Source: Aliiglaciecola sp.
GTDB lineage: Bacteria > Pseudomonadota > Gammaproteobacteria > Enterobacterales > Alteromonadaceae
Assembly (NCBI GenBank): GCA_028356795.1
Contig: JAOMVH010000004.1
Location: 1 to 58,237 of the forward strand
DNA: 58,237 bases
Direction: 5' to 3'
Positions 29,766 through 46,354 of this stretch are shown piece by piece. Within the stretch, counting starts at the first letter, position 1. Each line of letters opens with the position of its first letter. The position numbers and the translations under genes are program-made. The notes beneath the pieces were generated by a model. It made no database searches. It was not told the DNA's origin and saw only the letters and a program-made list of their open reading frames with translations.

Positions 29766-30533
29766 TTATTTCAGGTTCCGCGCAAGTATCTGTTTTTGTA
29801 AACTAGAATTATCAAAGTTATAGCCCAGTAAACTAATATCTTCGGCATATACTTTTGCAACAATATCTTTCGTTTCTTCATTGTAATAGTCTATATATTT
29901 ATTATGCGTACTTTTATTAGATTCGTTTAAATTTACTTCTAGGCCAATTTGATTTTTAATAATGTCAAAGTCCTGATCGATATTCTCTAAAAATCCTACA
30001 AAATCTAGTTTTATTTTGCCATGTTTGTTTAAAATATATTGGTACTGAGGTCTAAAGTGGTGCCATTTCTGAATATTATCTTTACTCAACCAATTCTTAA
30101 CAAAATCATCAAAACTATTGTAGGCACTTAGTTCACGTTCAAACCAAGCCCTATCTTTTTTCCCGAAGCCGCCTTTTTTCAAAAAAAAGTAAGCTGAAAC
30201 CAATCTATCCCATGGGTTTCTTACAATCGTAAACTTAAAATAGTTTGTGAGATTGCACGGTTCGAATACAGTAATATATTCATCCAAAGTGGTATGACCA
30301 CCAGCCAGACAACCAAATAAGGTTTTAGCAATAGATACGCCTGCACACTTCGGTACATGAACAAATATCGCGTTATTTTCGTCGAAAGGTCTGTAAGAGT
30401 ACTCCCTATCGTCGATGTTTCTCCTCAACTTTTGTTTGCTCTCATGCCCCCGTTTGTTTGTGATTTTATAATCCCAATATCGATACTCTAGATAAAGTCT
30501 CTGTGGGAGAACTTTTATCGCTATATTTTTCAT
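29766..30533 (-). CDS. Carbohydrate sulfotransferase family 2
   Basis: PAPS-dependent sulfotransferase of 255 residues. The 5'-phosphosulfate loop VPKCAGVSIAK is at 60-70, and the 3'-phosphate-binding motif VRNPWDRLVSAY is at 104-115, both standard for the Sulfotransfer_2 family that modifies glycans. An AAGGTG ribosome site stands 6 nt before the ATG. The gene is visibly richer in A/T than its neighbours, suggesting recent acquisition. Sulfated exopolysaccharide is common in marine Alteromonadales. It probably sulfates a sugar of the polymer made by this locus (inference). Confidence 0.88.
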   Translation of the reverse strand: MKNIAIKVLPQRLYLEYRYWDYKITNKRGHESKQKLRRNIDDREYSYRPFDENNAIFVHVPKCAGVSIAKTLFGCLAGGHTTLDEYITVFEPCNLTNYFKFTIVRNPWDRLVSAYFFLKKGGFGKKDRAWFERELSAYNSFDDFVKNWLSKDNIQKWHHFRPQYQYILNKHGKIKLDFVGFLENIDQDFDIIKNQIGLEVNLNESNKSTHNKYIDYYNEETKDIVAKVYAEDISLLGYNFDNSSLQKQILARNLK

Positions 30534-34492: not shown

Positions 34493-35149
34493 ATGAAGAC
34501 TAATATGGGTTGTGGTTACCTGATTGGGTTACTTTTACTTGCGATTAATGTGCCAGCACTGGCTGCACAGAAGAATAATCAGACGTGCGGTATCACGCCG
34601 GGAAAACCAATTACCAATAGTTATGGTCCATTTGATTGGACCAACCCAGAGCATGCTCCTAAGTTTCCGATCGTAATCAATGCCCACTTCACGCCACAAG
34701 TAGAGCGTTTGATAGAGGGGTCTACCGGGGCTTTACCTCATGATATAGATTACACGTTGCGCGCAATTCCCAATCACCATCGCGCACTAAATGCTATGTC
34801 TCGCTTTGAAATTCAAGGGAAAAAAACGCCAGGAGCATTTAGTCGGTACTATTCCGCAGATTGCTTTTTCAAACGTGCTATTTATTTTCAACCTGCAGAT
34901 GCAACATCGAGAATGCTTTATGGTATTCATAAACATCAACTAAAACTTTTTGGTGATGCTGAAAAGTTGTACTTACAAGCTCTTGCCATGTCACCAAACA
35001 ACCCTGAGATTCATTACAATCTAGGTTTATTGTATGTTGATACAAATGCGATAGACAAAGCAAAAAAACATGCAAAAGTAGCCTATGCGGGTGGCTATCC
35101 GCTGCCAGGTTTAAACAACAAAATAGCTAGGGCTGAAAAGGCTAATTAG
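34493..35149 (+). CDS. Periplasmic TPR-containing protein of the polysaccharide locus
   Basis: A 218-residue protein with a signal peptide (YLIGLLLLAINVPALAAQ). A distinctive N-terminal region holds YGPFDWTNPEH, AHFTPQVERL and IDYTLRAIPNHHRAL. About two TPR units follow (SRMLYGIHKHQLKLFGDAE, PEIHYNLGLLYVDTNAIDKA). Two cysteines (near 32 and 123) could form a disulfide. Its function is unknown. Similar secreted TPR proteins occur beside polysaccharide genes, so a scaffold or polymer-length role is conceivable. It runs rightward between leftward glycosyltransferase and flippase genes. Confidence 0.7.
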   Translation: MKTNMGCGYLIGLLLLAINVPALAAQKNNQTCGITPGKPITNSYGPFDWTNPEHAPKFPIVINAHFTPQVERLIEGSTGALPHDIDYTLRAIPNHHRALNAMSRFEIQGKKTPGAFSRYYSADCFFKRAIYFQPADATSRMLYGIHKHQLKLFGDAEKLYLQALAMSPNNPEIHYNLGLLYVDTNAIDKAKKHAKVAYAGGYPLPGLNNKIARAEKAN

Positions 35150-35207: not shown

Positions 35208-36689
35208 CTAAAATTTGTTTTTTATGGTTTTCCAAATCACATTTTCAACATCTTCTTCATGCCCAAAAACACGCCATAAAAGTAAAATAGTAACCAAGTA
35301 AACCACCCCACCTAGAGCGACAGACGCAAATAGTGCAAACAAGCCTTCCTCAACAAGATTAGGGCGCAATAAGTACACGTTAGTTGACCACATTGCTAGG
35401 CACCCCATAGATGGTCTAACAATGCGCTTTAAGATCAAAAACGGATTTAATTTTAAAAAAAACAAAATACCGGTTTGGGTCAAGGCCAACATGATAATTG
35501 CAGTAAAAAACATCGCATAGCCAGCACCGAGTAAACCATAGATATCCACCAGGTAAACGAGTGCAGTTAAAAAGATAATTGCTCTCGTTAGCCCAAAGAA
35601 GAAGGAATATTTAGGCTTGCCACAAGCTAAGTAGATATAGCCGTTATTGGTTCCCAACCCGAGGAATATGCTAGATAAGGCTACCCATTGCATCAGCTCT
35701 ATGGTTTCAATCCACTTTTCACCTAAAACATTAATCACAAACAAGTCAGCAACTATAAAAATACCTACCGATGCAGCTGCAGTTAAGCTAAAGGTCATAG
35801 CAAGGGTATTTAAGTATGCACGCTTTAATTCCTCGAGCTTATTTGCAAATTTCGAATACACAGGGAAAGAAGCTCTATTAATCGGTGCGGCTAACTCTGT
35901 GGTTGGTAAAGTGGAGATTTCATTGGCCATGGAATACAAGCCAATAGCGCGGGCAGAGATGAGTCGGCCGATCAATAGTTCAGTCATTTTATTGTTGAGG
36001 AAAAAGACGATATTGTTTAACAACAGCCACTTTGAAAAACTAAACAAACTACTAAAGGAAACTAAGCTAAATCGCGGACGAAACGGATGCATCAGGTAAC
36101 TTAGTGCAACGATTGCTAGTTGAAAACTAAGAGTTCCCAACACCAAAGCCCAGTAACTCTGTAAGTAAAATGCCAAGGATATGGTAATAGTAAAACTAAA
36201 TATCTTCGGTAAAAGCTGAAATTTGAACTCTTTCTTAAAATCCAAATCTTTTTGAAAATCTATTACGCCAATGTTGGCAAACCCAGAAATCAATCCCAAT
36301 AATCCTATTGTTTGAACCAAAGGGACCAGCCGTTGATCATCATAAAAATCTGCGGCAGGCCAAGACAGTCCAATCAACGCTATACAGGTAACCAAACCAA
36401 ATAGTACTTTGAACGTCCACGCCGTATTGTAGTCATCAACTGATTTTTCTTGTTTTTGAATTAATACCGTACCAAGCCCAAACGCTCCGAACAGTTCGAT
36501 GAACGCATAAATGGCCATGGCAATTGCCACTAAACCAAAATCTTCGGGTACCAATAATCTAGCCAGAATAACGGTACTTATTAGCCCCAAGGACTTTATT
36601 GACATTCTCGTGATCAACATGAACATTGAACTAGAGAATAACTTGGCGTGTATTTCCTTATCAGTATGCTGAGGGGTATTACTTTGCAT
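35208..36689 (-). CDS. Wzx-type polysaccharide flippase (PST family), copy 2
   Basis: A 493-residue, multi-helix MOP-superfamily exporter with the signature LARLLVPEDFGLVAIAMAIYA near 40-60. It follows the polymerase/ligase gene with an 11-bp overlap, so it is part of the core XrtA arm and is the likelier flippase for the core repeat unit. It shares layout with copy 1 (both have a DTAWT or YNTAWTFK segment after TM3) but is clearly diverged. Confidence 0.9.
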   Translation of the reverse strand: MQSNTPQHTDKEIHAKLFSSSMFMLITRMSIKSLGLISTVILARLLVPEDFGLVAIAMAIYAFIELFGAFGLGTVLIQKQEKSVDDYNTAWTFKVLFGLVTCIALIGLSWPAADFYDDQRLVPLVQTIGLLGLISGFANIGVIDFQKDLDFKKEFKFQLLPKIFSFTITISLAFYLQSYWALVLGTLSFQLAIVALSYLMHPFRPRFSLVSFSSLFSFSKWLLLNNIVFFLNNKMTELLIGRLISARAIGLYSMANEISTLPTTELAAPINRASFPVYSKFANKLEELKRAYLNTLAMTFSLTAAASVGIFIVADLFVINVLGEKWIETIELMQWVALSSIFLGLGTNNGYIYLACGKPKYSFFFGLTRAIIFLTALVYLVDIYGLLGAGYAMFFTAIIMLALTQTGILFFLKLNPFLILKRIVRPSMGCLAMWSTNVYLLRPNLVEEGLFALFASVALGGVVYLVTILLLWRVFGHEEDVENVIWKTIKNKF

Positions 36690-37980
36690 TTGCCGGGTCT
36701 TTGTAAGCTAATTGATTAATCGCCATCACTGCCACAATCCCAATCATCGCATAGAGCAAATCAAAATATGCCAAACTTACATTACCACCTGTGATACAGA
36801 AGCCGACCATCGACAACATAATAGCCGAACACAATTTCTGAACCCATTCCACTTCTTCTTTTTTTGCAATTTTCCCCAGCCGTCGAAGCGCGAGTAACAC
36901 CTTCATTAAGATGGTTAAAAATATCATCAAACCCACAATACCGTGGTCGCCCAGTACTTGCATATACACATTATGGGCAGCTTTAGGCTTTAAATCGTTT
37001 GGAATTGGCGGAGTTTTAATCGGCCCGAAATTGGACGTCTCTGGCGCGTAAGTTAACCACAAAACAGGATCGGTTACCGCTCGAAATCCTCCTCCGGTAA
37101 GTGGATTGTCTAATGCAATGAGGGTTGATATTTTCCAGGCCCACAAACGACCGATGAAAGAGCCATCAGATTTGGTTGCATCTTTTACCGTATCTTGCCG
37201 CTCTCGCCATTCTTCAGGCGCCATTGAATAAGCAGCCGGTAACGCCAATACCGCAATAACCGCTAACACGATCTTGTATCGAGACGCCATCCAAAAAGCG
37301 ATGGCTAAAATAATGAGACCGATAAACCCACCACGAGAATAGGTACCGACAATCGCAATTACATTCAACCCCAATAATCCCAACAAACCCAATTTGATGG
37401 TTTTATGTTTGGTCGTTTGAAATAGGTAAATCAATAGCGGAATAGCCATATTAATTGCTACAGCCAAATCGTTTCTATCGATTATAATCCCGGCTTTTCC
37501 GATAATTCGGTGTCCACCACCAGACAATACAAATTTCACCGCTTCCATGCCTGCGTAAGACGAAATAGAAAGCACCACAGCCCACACAATTGTGTCCACA
37601 TGCAAACGCTTGGTAACCGTCAGTGTAATAAAGAAAAACAACAAATAGGTTTTGAAAAACGCAATCCAGTACCCGAAAGTTTTTCCCTCATAAACACTTA
37701 GATTTGCGGCGGTTGAAATCAATGTCCAAAAAGCAAAAAAACCAACCCAAAAAAACAAGCTATGTTTGGGAAACGTCTTATTTTTTGTGAGAAACATGTA
37801 CGACAATGCAGTTACCAGCACGATCGTTAAATTAAGACGAAACGATTGTGAAAAACCAAATACCCAATCTGCTGGCGCCGTTAACGCGATCCATACCCAG
37901 GCAGCCATGCCGATGTATGGACGCTTGAAGCTATAATAAATTGCAACAAACAAAAAACCTACAAGTAGCAAATCACGCAT
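36679..37980 (-). CDS. XrtA-associated O-antigen ligase/polymerase-like membrane protein
   Basis: Wzy/WaaL-fold membrane protein of 433 residues, like the putative O-glycosylation ligase family of exosortase A loci. It begins MRDLLLVGFLFVAIYYSFKR and has about ten to twelve helices. A long periplasmic loop near 260-345 contains GSFIGRLWAWKIS and KAAHNVYMQVLGDHG, the conserved His of the Wzy_C region. The ATG at 37980 has AGGAAGA 8 nt upstream and overlaps the stop of the 27-codon ORF (TAATG). It probably polymerises the repeat unit or transfers it to protein. Confidence 0.88.
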   Translation of the reverse strand: MRDLLLVGFLFVAIYYSFKRPYIGMAAWVWIALTAPADWVFGFSQSFRLNLTIVLVTALSYMFLTKNKTFPKHSLFFWVGFFAFWTLISTAANLSVYEGKTFGYWIAFFKTYLLFFFITLTVTKRLHVDTIVWAVVLSISSYAGMEAVKFVLSGGGHRIIGKAGIIIDRNDLAVAINMAIPLLIYLFQTTKHKTIKLGLLGLLGLNVIAIVGTYSRGGFIGLIILAIAFWMASRYKIVLAVIAVLALPAAYSMAPEEWRERQDTVKDATKSDGSFIGRLWAWKISTLIALDNPLTGGGFRAVTDPVLWLTYAPETSNFGPIKTPPIPNDLKPKAAHNVYMQVLGDHGIVGLMIFLTILMKVLLALRRLGKIAKKEEVEWVQKLCSAIMLSMVGFCITGGNVSLAYFDLLYAMIGIVAVMAINQLAYKDPANAK

Positions 37981-38063
37981 TAATCTTCTTCCTGCTGGCT
38001 TGACCACCAAAACACAAAGCAGATAGCGCCAATATCAGCGAGTAGATATAAACTGTCTATCAT
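37980..38063 (-). CDS. 27-residue membrane microprotein, coupled on both sides
   Basis: Small ORF of 27 codons. The ATG (38063-38061) overlaps the PaaK-like gene's stop as ATGA, and its TAA (37982-37980) overlaps the polymerase/ligase start as TAATG. The product has a single hydrophobic stretch LYLLADIGAICFVFWW with aromatic interface residues, an N-terminal MIDS and an acidic, polar tail SSQQEED. The double overlap leaves no spare base and is hard to explain unless ribosomes translate it. No family recognised. It could be a subunit of the polymerase/ligase or just a coupling cistron. Confidence 0.6.
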   Translation of the reverse strand: MIDSLYLLADIGAICFVFWWSSQQEED

Positions 38064-39418
38064 CCTACACTTACCTTACTAATCACATATCGATATTTAC
38101 CAGACTTTTCTGGTTCAATTTCGCGCACATTTTCAATGCTGATATTCACCGTCTCTCCAAGCCTAGCTTTAAAACCTTGGCTAATGGTATCACGCATCTC
38201 TTGATTTACCTCGCCCGTTTTCGAGACGACCTGGACATGGGTGTTATCAATATCATGTTGAACAATTTTAAATGACTCCACTGACTCCATGTCACGCAGA
38301 ATATAAATCAGTGATAATCCATGCAGTATGGTGCCATCTGCTGCCACAACAAAGTCGGTGCTGCGCCCTTCGATGGATTCAAGCATAGGAAGCCCTCTTC
38401 CGCACTCACATTGTTTGTCAGACATGACTGCGATATCGCCGGTTTTATAGCGCACAAAAGGAAATTCCGATGTGCCTAAATGGGTCACAACAATTTCACC
38501 CGATTGACCAGCGGGCAGCGGGTTACCCTCAGGGTCGACGATTTCAACCACGATATCTTCAAAGGAAAGGTGCATGCCACCTCTTGGGCACTGGTGCGCA
38601 ATAAAGCCTGCGTCCCGCCCACCATAACCATTTGCCACAGGACAACCAAAGACAGCTTCAATGTTCTCTCTTTGATAGGGATATAAACGTTCTGAGGTAA
38701 CAAAAGCGACTTTGATCCCCAGATTATCCATTTTAATGCCTTTTTGCTTCGCTGTTTTTGCCAACAAATCAAATACGGATGGATAACCGAATAACATTTT
38801 GGGCTTTGATTTTTGAATAGTGTCGAGAAAAGACAGCAATTTTTCTTCGGTCATATCAAACGCTGGGATCAATTCAGATCGAAATAGGCCATCACGGATC
38901 AGTCGTACTTTATCCTGTGCACCTAATTCGATCGGTGAGCCCCAAGCGACAATTTCCTTATCACCAATATCCACATCCCACCAACGGGTTGCTCGCCACT
39001 TTTGTGCAACGTCGTGGGATACTCGCTCATTACCTAATAAAAAGATAAGCGGTTGACCGCTAGAACCACCAGTATTAAAACGAGATAACGGACCAGCTAT
39101 ATCAGATTTCAAGCCCTCAAAATTTTCAGAAATTGTTTTTTTATCTAAAAAAGGTAATTTAGTTAAGTCAGCAGGAGATTGAATGTCACCAGCCTTGAGA
39201 CCTAAAGAGGCAAATAGCTCTCGGTAAAAAGGCACATTAGTGACAATATTTTCAATGAACTGGCGCAGTCTTAACGATTGATTTTCACGCAGAGTGTCAA
39301 CATCGCGCCATTGAGATGCTTCTAATTGCTTGCGTATTTTTACGGTATCGTGCTTTTTAAGTTTTTCATGCAAAGGAAATAGCATTTTTGAAACAATGGA
39401 CGTGTAAAAACCTGACAT
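38060..39418 (-). CDS. PaaK/CapK-like adenylate-forming enzyme
   Basis: A 452-residue member of the phenylacetate-CoA ligase-like branch of the AMP-binding superfamily. The P-loop FNTGGSSGQPLIF is near 115-127, with further motifs YGGRDAGFIAHQC (acyl-pocket/AMP region) and VRYKTGDIAV. CEKGRGLP-type cysteines appear in QCECGRGLP. Proteins of this group in capsule loci (CapK) are thought to activate acids for transfer to sugars. It abuts the upstream glycosyltransferase gene and overlaps the microprotein gene by 4 bp. Confidence 0.85.
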   Translation of the reverse strand: MSGFYTSIVSKMLFPLHEKLKKHDTVKIRKQLEASQWRDVDTLRENQSLRLRQFIENIVTNVPFYRELFASLGLKAGDIQSPADLTKLPFLDKKTISENFEGLKSDIAGPLSRFNTGGSSGQPLIFLLGNERVSHDVAQKWRATRWWDVDIGDKEIVAWGSPIELGAQDKVRLIRDGLFRSELIPAFDMTEEKLLSFLDTIQKSKPKMLFGYPSVFDLLAKTAKQKGIKMDNLGIKVAFVTSERLYPYQRENIEAVFGCPVANGYGGRDAGFIAHQCPRGGMHLSFEDIVVEIVDPEGNPLPAGQSGEIVVTHLGTSEFPFVRYKTGDIAVMSDKQCECGRGLPMLESIEGRSTDFVVAADGTILHGLSLIYILRDMESVESFKIVQHDIDNTHVQVVSKTGEVNQEMRDTISQGFKARLGETVNISIENVREIEPEKSGKYRYVISKVSVG

Positions 39419-44908: not shown

Positions 44909-46354
44909 CTAGTCACCGGATAACAATGCCTGTGCAGAGCCGTCAAAGATTTGCTGCGCTTTTTGCTCGAGTTCTAATTTGTCTTGTTCGCGATTTTCAA
45001 TCGGCTTTGATAGCACTAACACAAATCCATTTTGCGGCTGACCAATAAGTGCCTGCAGCGCTTGAACTAATTTAATTTCCAACGACTTATGGGTAACATG
45101 CCACGGTGTGACATAGGCGTAGGTCATCAATCGACTACGTCCATAGTTGTCGATAACCTCTAATGTTCTGAATCGTTCGTTGGCATCGTCTGTCACAATC
45201 GACCATCGTTCAATGTTGTAAATTTTGTTACGACCGTTAATTAACTCTTGGCCTTGAATATTAGCGTTGTAGTAGGCGTAATAATAGTCGATGCCACTGG
45301 CGCTGCCGGTCACCACTTTAGTCGGATTATTAAAAATAGGTAACCAACTCGTTTCTGCAATAGCGTCATCGGCACTAAATACACTAGCAATGTTTGGATC
45401 AACATCGCTGACTGGGTTTTCAAACACGACTTTATAACTGATCGCCGCAGCAAGCAGAATAACCAACCCAGTTCCAGGTTTAACTAAACCAGAGAAGTCC
45501 ATTTTAGGACCCATTGGGTTATTGGCAACCTCAGCTTCTGGAATAGGGTCTGCCCAACGACCGCCAACCGTAAACATAATTAAAATAACCACACCGAAAA
45601 ATAACCACCCATAAATTAAATGGTCTACGCCGGTAGCATATTTCATATCAGATAAGTGCGCGATCATGACGATGCCATAAGCGCGTATGCCGTTGGCTAT
45701 AAGAGGTAAAACAATTGAGAAAGCAATAAAAATTAAGCGCTTCTTAATGCTTGTGTAATTTAAATACGCGAACAAGGTGCCAAGGGTAAATGATGCAATC
45801 AAGTAACGTATTCCTGAACATGCCACCGCAACCTCAAAAATTCCCCCAGGAATATAAATGTAGAGGCCCTCGCGATACACGGGAATACCGGTAAGTTCGA
45901 TAGCCAAAACGGTTATATCAGCGGTCAGTTCTTGTAGCTGGGGGATCAGAAACTCTCCCGCAGGAACGCTAAACAACCAGAAGAATGATGCAAACATCAA
46001 AATGCGCGCAATTTGGTTACCAAGCAAACACCAAATCATCAGCGGCAACATGGCAAACGTGGCAATTTGCTCTATCACCAGCACTTGCGCCATGCTCCCA
46101 AACAACCATATGACTAATGTTCCAACCACGAACAATAATGCTAATAATGACGGTTTTAACTCAGCGTTATTGAGTTTCCCCCATTTAAGTTTTATCAGGT
46201 AGATACATATTGGCAGAATAATAAAACAGTGGGCAAAGGTTTCAGAGCGATACCATATAGCAACAGTTGACTCGATACTGCTATAAAACAACACTGACCA
46301 TGCTGCAAAAATAGCGAGCAAATATTTGAAGATACTACTTTTCAAAAACGTCAT
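44909..46354 (-). CDS. xrtA: Exosortase A fused to EpsI domain
   Basis: Inner-membrane cysteine protease/transpeptidase of 481 residues. The exosortase half (about 1-265) has eight or so helices and the triad Cys179 (VACSGIRYL), Arg224 (NGIRAYG) and His245 (VDHLIYGW). In known systems it recognises PEP-CTERM tails and couples them to a lipid-linked polymer or envelope anchor. The C-terminal half (about 290-481) is an EpsI-type periplasmic domain after one more helix. Such fusions are common for XrtA. It lies centrally in the biosynthetic arm, 2 bp after the stp1 transferase. No PEP-CTERM substrate is encoded in the window. Confidence 0.96.
   Translation of the reverse strand: MTFLKSSIFKYLLAIFAAWSVLFYSSIESTVAIWYRSETFAHCFIILPICIYLIKLKWGKLNNAELKPSLLALLFVVGTLVIWLFGSMAQVLVIEQIATFAMLPLMIWCLLGNQIARILMFASFFWLFSVPAGEFLIPQLQELTADITVLAIELTGIPVYREGLYIYIPGGIFEVAVACSGIRYLIASFTLGTLFAYLNYTSIKKRLIFIAFSIVLPLIANGIRAYGIVMIAHLSDMKYATGVDHLIYGWLFFGVVILIMFTVGGRWADPIPEAEVANNPMGPKMDFSGLVKPGTGLVILLAAAISYKVVFENPVSDVDPNIASVFSADDAIAETSWLPIFNNPTKVVTGSASGIDYYYAYYNANIQGQELINGRNKIYNIERWSIVTDDANERFRTLEVIDNYGRSRLMTYAYVTPWHVTHKSLEIKLVQALQALIGQPQNGFVLVLSKPIENREQDKLELEQKAQQIFDGSAQALLSGD

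Follow-up and report, generated by a model that had tools for sequence, protein, structure and literature searches.

A conserved single-pass membrane microprotein encoded next to one branch of exosortase-A-associated WaaL-fold ligases, a probable accessory subunit

It is known that large membrane enzymes can possess tiny accessory proteins that span the membrane once. KdpF, a membrane peptide of 30 amino acids (aa) of the K+ transporter KdpFABC, is co-transcribed with its large partners and is supposed to stabilise them. According to the excerpts of the sources cited here, CydX groups tightly on the CydA tree, is linked to the long Q-loop of CydA and often goes unannotated (PMC4325964), DltX, a small protein from an envelope-polymer operon, is needed for the D-alanylation of teichoic acids (PMC5541007), and RmpD, another small protein, binds Wzc and controls the chain length of the capsule (PMC10294653). 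The SEDS polymerases likewise function with a membrane partner, RodA-PBP2 and FtsW-FtsI requiring their cognate class B penicillin-binding protein (bPBP) (PMC8078798) and RodA-RagB representing a further pairing (PMC12457691), again as far as the excerpted text goes. The present work deals with a short open reading frame (ORF), hereafter the microORF, which occurs in a stretch of 58,237 nucleotides (nt) from Aliiglaciecola sp. (assembly GCA_028356795.1, contig JAOMVH010000004.1, positions 1 to 58,237; the window). Located on the minus strand at 37980..38063, between a PaaK-like gene and a ligase gene of an exosortase cluster, the microORF encodes the 27-aa single-pass membrane microprotein MIDSLYLLADIGAICFVFWWSSQQEED. 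We consider it rather likely that this microprotein is a conserved, dedicated and probably obligate single-pass accessory subunit of one branch of exosortase-A-associated ligases with the WaaL fold.

The microORF and the selection acting on its product

The microORF starts with the ATG at 38063-38061 and stops with the TAA at 37982-37980, i.e., after 27 codons. The upstream neighbour (38060..39418, minus strand), an adenylate-forming enzyme of the PaaK/CapK-like type recognised by its AMP-binding domain (PF00501), ends in GTA-GGA-TGA, and its stop codon TGA (38062-38060) overlaps the start of the microORF as ATGA. At the other end, one base (37980) is common to the TAA of the microORF and the ATG of the ligase gene, which gives TAATG; the conserved start of the ligase corresponds to this ATG (M1 R2 D3) and not to the TTG at 38010 of the mechanical ORF list. 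Both overlaps, as announced by the original prediction, which named no strand, can be read directly in the window. An AAGG motif within the last PaaK codons (38074..38077, minus strand) may serve, from its match to the consensus, as Shine-Dalgarno (SD) sequence of the microORF, and an SD-like sequence of the ligase gene, AGGAAGAAG (37985..37993, minus strand), lies within the codons of the Q-E-E-D tail of the microprotein.

The genomes of the genus yielded the microORF in eight cases out of nine (E 1.2e-6 to 9.7e-15), the ninth genome (G002) possessing a distant ligase only (29%) and no PaaK match at E 1e-60. For seven sequences of the genus, the proportion of synonymous differences (pS) reaches 0.78 and that of nonsynonymous differences (pN) 0.15, i.e., a pN/pS of 0.195, as compared to 1.36 and 1.39 in the two shifted frames. 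Similarly, 24 sequences of the compact type display a pN/pS of 0.27 (shifted frames 0.89 and 1.45), and 60 sampled pairs of this type a value of 0.26, versus a mean of 0.84 and a minimum of 0.45 in 300 column shuffles. Four further groups, which are hand-picked and consist of 33 sequences cut to 22 codons, give 0.32 for the Massilia type (n=12), 0.10 for Colwellia (n=6), 0.24 for the Colwelliaceae/Rheinheimera/Vibrio MES type (n=7) and 0.21 for the Halieaceae type (n=8), with shifted frames at 0.94-2.35 and none of 200 shuffles as low in any of them. The bias towards synonymous substitutions, which had been proposed as a check of the original prediction, is present (pN/pS 0.10-0.32 in five groups versus 0.94-2.35 in their shifted frames) and, judged from these alignments, the microORF is a coding gene under protein-level selection.

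The 73 dereplicated microORFs used for the anatomical counts encode products of 25-59 aa, with a median of 29, and start with ATG (64), GTG (7) or TTG (2), although the TTG start of L180, one codon inside an ATG, is probably wrong, and L180 was left out of alignment A2. The consensus of 72 members reads MIDSLxxLxDxxAVxYLxxWAxKxD. The membrane segment is the part that is kept, and the tail is the most variable part both in length and in sequence; the acidic character attributed to this tail does not extend to most of the relatives, where it is of mixed charge. Scans of the 72 members against Pfam and NCBIfam revealed no fitting family, 18 Pfam families being matched. The microprotein represents in this respect a gene family distributed across Gamma- and Betaproteobacteria, comprising marine and soil bacteria, that is not covered by the current models of both databases.

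Association with one branch of the ligase tree

The gene that follows the microORF (36679..37980, minus strand) encodes an exosortase-A-associated putative O-glycosylation ligase (TIGR03097 PEP_O_lig_1; Wzy_C, DUF5935), the presumed partner, which scores 340.1 bits against TIGR03097 for a cut-off of 188.1. An AlphaFold2 model built from an alignment of 112 rows is predicted with high confidence (predicted local distance difference test, pLDDT, 93.1; predicted template-modelling score, pTM, 0.92), and its best Foldseek match is WaaL (7tpg, E 1.6e-6, template-modelling (TM) score 0.64), followed by the folds of FtsW (E 2.8e-3) and RodA (E 6.8e-3). In the O-antigen ligases, two Arg and one His residues, R191, R265 and H313 in 7TPG, bind the diphosphate and activate the acceptor, according to an excerpt of PMC10920833; the residues R216, R278 and H336, which are invariant in the 112 rows, would be their equivalents from their order along the chain. 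A loop associated with the microORF-bearing branch occupies residues ~316-329 of the ligase (36994..37035, minus strand) in the alignment, just before the conserved His336. Its positions 320-327 are occupied in 94-100% of 72 ligases of the branch versus 0% of 53 others, eight rows (L015, L147-L151, L155 and L157) being left out of the comparison.

A search for TIGR03097 among 369 genomes of the class gave 75 genomes and 76 match rows, 68 of which were read. The microORF occurs in two (L138 and L145) of the 63 loci with a usable ligase start and is absent from the 61 others, the ligase starts of rows L151, L155 and L157 being uncertain. A second scan used 14 ligases of the branch, and the best 80 of 123 relatives were retained as named loci: the microORF was found in 75 of the 78 with a ligase start, L220 being counted by position and not by profile, and L210 and L212 by direct reading of the sequence. 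The three named loci devoid of the microORF all belong to Alphaproteobacteria. Carriers comprise Aliiglaciecola, Paraglaciecola, Bowmanella, Lacimicrobium, Rheinheimera, Alishewanella, Thalassotalea, Colwellia, Litorilituus, Vibrio, Halieaceae, Massilia/Telluria, Noviherbaspirillum and Pseudorhodoferax. Moreover, a search for the microprotein itself in 60 genomes gave 12 strong matches (E <= 1.2e-7), one per genome and all located at the ligase.

On a maximum-likelihood tree of 133 ligases, dereplicated at 80% from 191 sequences of which 122 were labelled positive, a single branch separates 73 rows that all possess the microORF from 60 rows that all lack it. The tree requires one change of state, as compared to a mean of 44.1 for shuffled labels, and none of 500 shuffles was as low. 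The word clade holds here if the root lies on the microORF-free side, of which the root as drawn is no proof, and some branches, e.g., that of L015, are long. As most of the labels derive from a profile that had been built on these very sequences, the count was repeated free of any profile: a hydrophobic ORF of 24-65 aa ending between -40 and +12 nt from the ligase start occurs in 73/73 loci of the clade versus 4/60 outside, the latter being the informative figure, as the hydropathy threshold of 1.4 was chosen with the members already seen (lowest value 1.46). None of the four outside ORFs resembles the microprotein family. As far as these sequences indicate, the microORF is found throughout the sampled members of one ligase branch, and because it is kept in this way, the microprotein is probably a working part of the ligase.

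The presence of the microORF was also predicted from the ligase sequence, by applying two ligase profiles, one for the clade and one for the rest, to 33 loci from plasmid and order-level searches (96 matching genomes of 394 for the order, the best 30 loci being read). Twenty of the 33 loci were new to the analysis, several of them from genera of the training set. The microORF was present in all seven new loci that score higher for the clade (profile 9.9-46.5 bits), two of which come from the same Vibrio species and three of which (L251, L252 and L254) had been inspected before the test; all 13 new loci scoring higher for the rest are profile-negative (<= 3.4 bits), although one of them, L282, is ambiguous (see below) and L264 shows a borderline hydrophobic frame. 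In three annotated plasmids of V. alfacsensis, a gap of ~86 nt without any listed gene between the glycosyltransferase and the ligase encodes MESFLYAGCLAMLIFICIRATKIENEDDE, which overlaps the ligase as ATGA. The microORF is unlisted in all three records, in line with the earlier remark that genes of this size are missed by annotation, and this lack of a listing is indicative only, the PLSDB gene table being incomplete by its own description. The plasmid ligase of one of these strains (L253, NZ_CP032095.1) is annotated in two pieces beside an integrase gene, and is whole in the two other strains.

The PaaK-like enzyme, the other neighbour of the microORF in the window, does not account for its distribution. 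A PaaK search among 295 genomes of the family led to 56 loci in 56 genomes at E <= 1e-60. The ligase lies directly downstream on the same strand in 44 of them, the window included, and a short ORF at the same place, as had been suggested to look for in related loci, occurs in 44/44; in the 12 loci without an adjacent downstream ligase, the microprotein profile does not exceed 7.1 bits anywhere in the locus. Among the 73 rows of the clade, a PaaK gene (>= 200 bits, ending <= 400 nt upstream) is found in 39 and not in the other 34, including L009 with a weaker upstream PaaK of 163 bits, and seven of the 60 outside rows (L014, L091, L092, L108, L114, L116 and L120) have PaaK upstream but no microORF. 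PaaK is ruled out as the partner by both counts. In ten PaaK-less loci, the upstream genes encode TuaC-like glycosyltransferases (five, below the model cut-off), the amidotransferase TIGR03108 (one), TIGR03088 (one) and products without a name at the threshold used (three); Pfam further identified a UDP-glucose/GDP-mannose dehydrogenase in L138 and glycosyltransferases in L145 and L220, and gave no name for the upstream genes of L199 and L231.

When the ligase and PaaK diverge differently, the microprotein goes with the ligase. In the genera g37, g54 and g61, ligases of quite different types coexist with similar PaaK enzymes, and the microprotein varies with the ligase; between L040 and L048, for example, the distances are 0.11 for PaaK, 0.59 for the ligase and 0.60 for the microprotein. 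For 38 dereplicated loci of 43, the truncated ligase of L078 being left out, the partial correlation of the microprotein with the ligase given the PaaK distance amounts to 0.73 (0/2000 permutations as high), and that with PaaK given the ligase distance to 0.16 (1.5% of permutations as high). The independence of the microORF from PaaK is stronger evidence than these distance correlations. Within one genus and with similar PaaK, the ligase-microprotein types differ strongly between L040/L041 and L043/L048, between L052 and L066/L071, and between L053 and L067/L073, as if the pair had been swapped as a cassette.

A probable ligase subunit and the competing explanations

A dedicated accessory subunit of the ligase is the reading that we favour. 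The microprotein, predicted to cross the inner membrane once with its N-terminus outside and its charged C-terminal tail in the cytoplasm, would be translated from an mRNA shared with the ligase and immediately ahead of it; with its stop codon overlapping the ligase start and its last codons carrying the ribosome-binding site of the ligase, its helix would be made beside the nascent ligase, insert in the membrane and pack as an extra helix against the transmembrane bundle of the enzyme, which it may stabilise, assemble or activate in the way of CydX or KdpF. Of the subunit or assembly factor evoked by the original prediction, the association with the ligase is observed and makes it the leading reading, and we infer the shared mRNA, a direct contact of the two proteins and the role in stabilisation or activation. 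If it is true, any reconstitution of the ligase should include the microprotein as an obligatory part, and the latter would offer a small handle for genetics. A bolder version, which we put forward tentatively and regard as somewhat less probable than its opposite, would make this family the founder of a class of microprotein subunits dedicated to glycan ligases with the WaaL fold (GT-C, O-ligase type): a bare helix would have been acquired once, in the ancestor of the branch, together with the new loop by the catalytic His, would have become indispensable, and might activate or gate the ligase somewhat as the bPBPs do for the SEDS polymerases.

Several points weigh against the subunit. The support of the separating branch is only 88 (Shimodaira-Hasegawa-like approximate likelihood ratio test, SH-aLRT, quick method), and presence or absence amounts to one evolutionary event on the tree; the loop and the microORF arise on about the same branch, which is one coincidence and a sample of one. 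The members are short and diverse, and three of them with weak profile scores, L220 (4.4 bits), L232 (13.0) and L009 (14.1), owe their inclusion mainly to position. Microprotein profile matches near 6e-5 alone mean little: in the 60 genomes searched, the match that follows the strong ones, L243 (G679:C1, E 6e-5), belongs to a DUF3301 protein (PF11743, 108 bits) that resembles the microprotein through its N-terminal helix and has no match to the ligase profile nearby, and eight weaker ones lie at E 0.005-0.07. Among the loci of the prediction test, L281, a repeat of the place of L015, has the microORF and yet scores 246 versus 257, so missing the rule, and L282 is ambiguous, with ligase scores of 215 versus 222 and an unlike small hydrophobic ORF upstream. 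The locus L015/L281 moreover possesses the microORF without the loop. Finally, inheritance together with the ligase could be due to tight linkage and not to function; the distance correlation in particular does not distinguish between them, as linkage alone could yield it, and a small PaaK term remains.

Two of these loci deserve a comment of their own. As a strict co-marker of the microORF, the loop is weakened both by L015/L281 and by the alphaproteobacterial L235 and L236, which lack the microORF and whose loop, in another alignment, is partial and different. L282 (G073:C4) belongs to the same family; its TIGR03097 ligase is diverged and preceded by a small membrane ORF, MDLDVEGLGKLIASVMLFIIIIFYSKKDDL, that overlaps the ligase start by 11 nt and could be distantly related or recruited independently.

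The competing explanation that survives best, though we hold it to be unlikely, makes the microprotein a membrane anchor or adaptor whose tail recruits either a soluble partner (the PaaK-like enzyme, a glycosyltransferase) or, much as RmpD binds Wzc, a chain-length regulator of the Wzc type. The skew of charged residues bears on this, with 3 K/R located N-terminal and 243 C-terminal to the hydrophobic segment, for 31 and 276 D/E, respectively; because of this K/R skew, the positive-inside rule suggests the N-out, C-in topology with the charged tail in the cytoplasm. The long-tail forms L138, L233 and L234 also share a tail motif, DLG-x-x-x-F/Y, with LGLFAY in L231, which may point to a contact specific to the tail of these forms. 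An adaptor agrees poorly, however, with a tail that varies most (25-59 aa overall) while the membrane segment is kept, and a recruited PaaK is at odds with the 34 clade loci that have none upstream.

Translational coupling is quite improbable as the whole function. A leader of this sort would only bring ribosomes to the ligase start and expose its SD, the peptide being a by-product, and the gene junctions are of the kind it calls for: the stop of the microORF overlaps the ligase start or directly adjoins it in 54 of the 73 loci (TAATG-type +1 in 31, +4 in 10, +8 in 8 and 0 in 5), and SD-like motifs precede 61/73 ligases and 52/73 microORFs. The short forms encode Gln24, where Asp/Glu follows, by CAG in 20/20 sequences, which are related and hence not 20 independent cases, versus a CAG:CAA ratio of 162:153 in the ligase genes of 32 short-form loci, and two short forms with Gly after Gln24 use CAA, still reading AAGG; with its codons carrying AGGA, part of the acidic tail appears to be dual-coded with the ligase SD. 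The amino acids are nevertheless conserved well upstream of this SD, at the low pN/pS reported above, many ligases outside the clade directly follow their upstream gene without any leader, and the microORF ends 14, 23 and 36 nt before the ligase in three loci. In the remaining 16 of the 73 loci this distance is 2-4 nt. A pure coupling device, offered earlier as an alternative to the subunit, is not supported as sole explanation, since purifying selection acts on the amino acids in several lineages and since spacing and overlaps vary while the protein stays. The coupling on both sides seen in the window holds for the ligase junction in most members and not for the PaaK junction, which is lineage-specific: in the 44 loci of the family, the distance from the PaaK stop to the start of the microORF ranges from -4 to +28 nt, and some other upstream genes end still farther away, which rules out double coupling as a conserved feature.

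A passenger that is inherited together with the ligase and has another role, e.g., in the whole exosortase or flippase system, is very unlikely. The distance correlation is what tight linkage by itself would produce, but the microORF marks the ligase clade in genomes of Alteromonadaceae, Colwelliaceae, Halieaceae, Vibrio and Oxalobacteraceae, immediately before the ligase and with differing upstream genes, and the 61 class-sample loci without it are TIGR03097 loci outside the clade. A chance open frame between coupled genes, for which the mere 27 codons in the window could speak, has a negligible probability and is already refuted by the pN/pS values, the conservation across families and the chance rate of 4/60 outside the clade.

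The surrounding cluster has the appearance of an ordinary exosortase A (XrtA) cluster, with the TIGR03013 sugar transferase, the TIGR03006 deacetylase, the TIGR03019 FemAB protein, TIGR03087, exosortase A itself (44909..46354, minus strand; TIGR03109, 337 bits for a cut-off of 208), TIGR03088, the TIGR03108 amidotransferase, TIGR04063 and a TuaC-like glycosyltransferase (below cut-off), in addition to the PaaK-like gene, the microORF, the ligase and a Wzx/MOP-type flippase, which is the next gene of the operon (35208..36689, minus strand; PF13440, 270 bits). A gene for a 218-aa tetratricopeptide repeat (TPR) protein (34493-35149) stands on the plus strand inside this otherwise minus-strand polysaccharide operon. 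Near the end of the cluster, a sulfotransferase-family gene (29766-30533, minus strand; PF03567, 60 bits) suggests that the glycan is sulfated.

Comparison with known accessory microproteins

As a conserved and selected short membrane protein tracking one enzyme clade, the microprotein corresponds to the functional kind of the single-pass accessory microproteins of membrane enzymes, and its family matches no described one found. No paper tying a small protein to TIGR03097 or to exosortase clusters was among the matches listed in the open-licence PMC, and the main text of a survey of small membrane proteins (PMC10903887), as excerpted, mentions neither exosortase, O-antigen, polysaccharide nor ligase. 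Among the families compared by profile, CydS (PF22282) shows a sub-threshold similarity in hydrophobic segment and tail, with 17.5 bits for the microprotein of the window and a cut-off of 25, with matches in 12/72 members (E up to 1, best E 0.0019); its score below the Pfam gathering cut-off rules out membership, and no cytochrome bd gene occurs among the operon genes scanned. DltX (PF12459) matches weakly in 2/72 members (best E 0.023), no dlt genes occur among the operon genes scanned, and it differs by its enzyme and its host group. For KdpF, no model appears among the Pfam or NCBIfam matches, the neighbours of the microORF are not kdp genes, and the partner is another one than the ligase. 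RmpD, like the microprotein, is small and acts on a machinery that assembles a surface polysaccharide, but it differs by its target, which is Wzc and not a ligase in the excerpted account (PMC10294653).

CydX (YbgT/YccB) is likewise a tiny single-helix protein encoded with a large membrane enzyme. Its tight grouping on the CydA tree and its link to a long Q-loop, according to the excerpted description, recall the microORF, the presence of which maps to one ligase clade with a loop of that clade. No CydX model is among the 18 Pfam families matched by the 72 members, and the neighbours are here PaaK-like and TIGR03097 genes. CydX is described in the same excerpts as experimentally required, whereas such a requirement is a prediction for the microprotein; the presumed partner of the latter is a glycan ligase, and its gene lies upstream and overlaps the start of the partner. 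The likeness to the SEDS polymerases resides in the enzyme, FtsW and RodA providing the next-best folds for the ligase model. The bPBPs are large enzymes with periplasmic domains, and the microprotein differs from such partners in being a bare helix with a tail only. If the subunit reading is true, an accessory membrane helix would be a feature that O-ligase-type enzymes have in common with cytochrome bd, Kdp and the SEDS polymerases.

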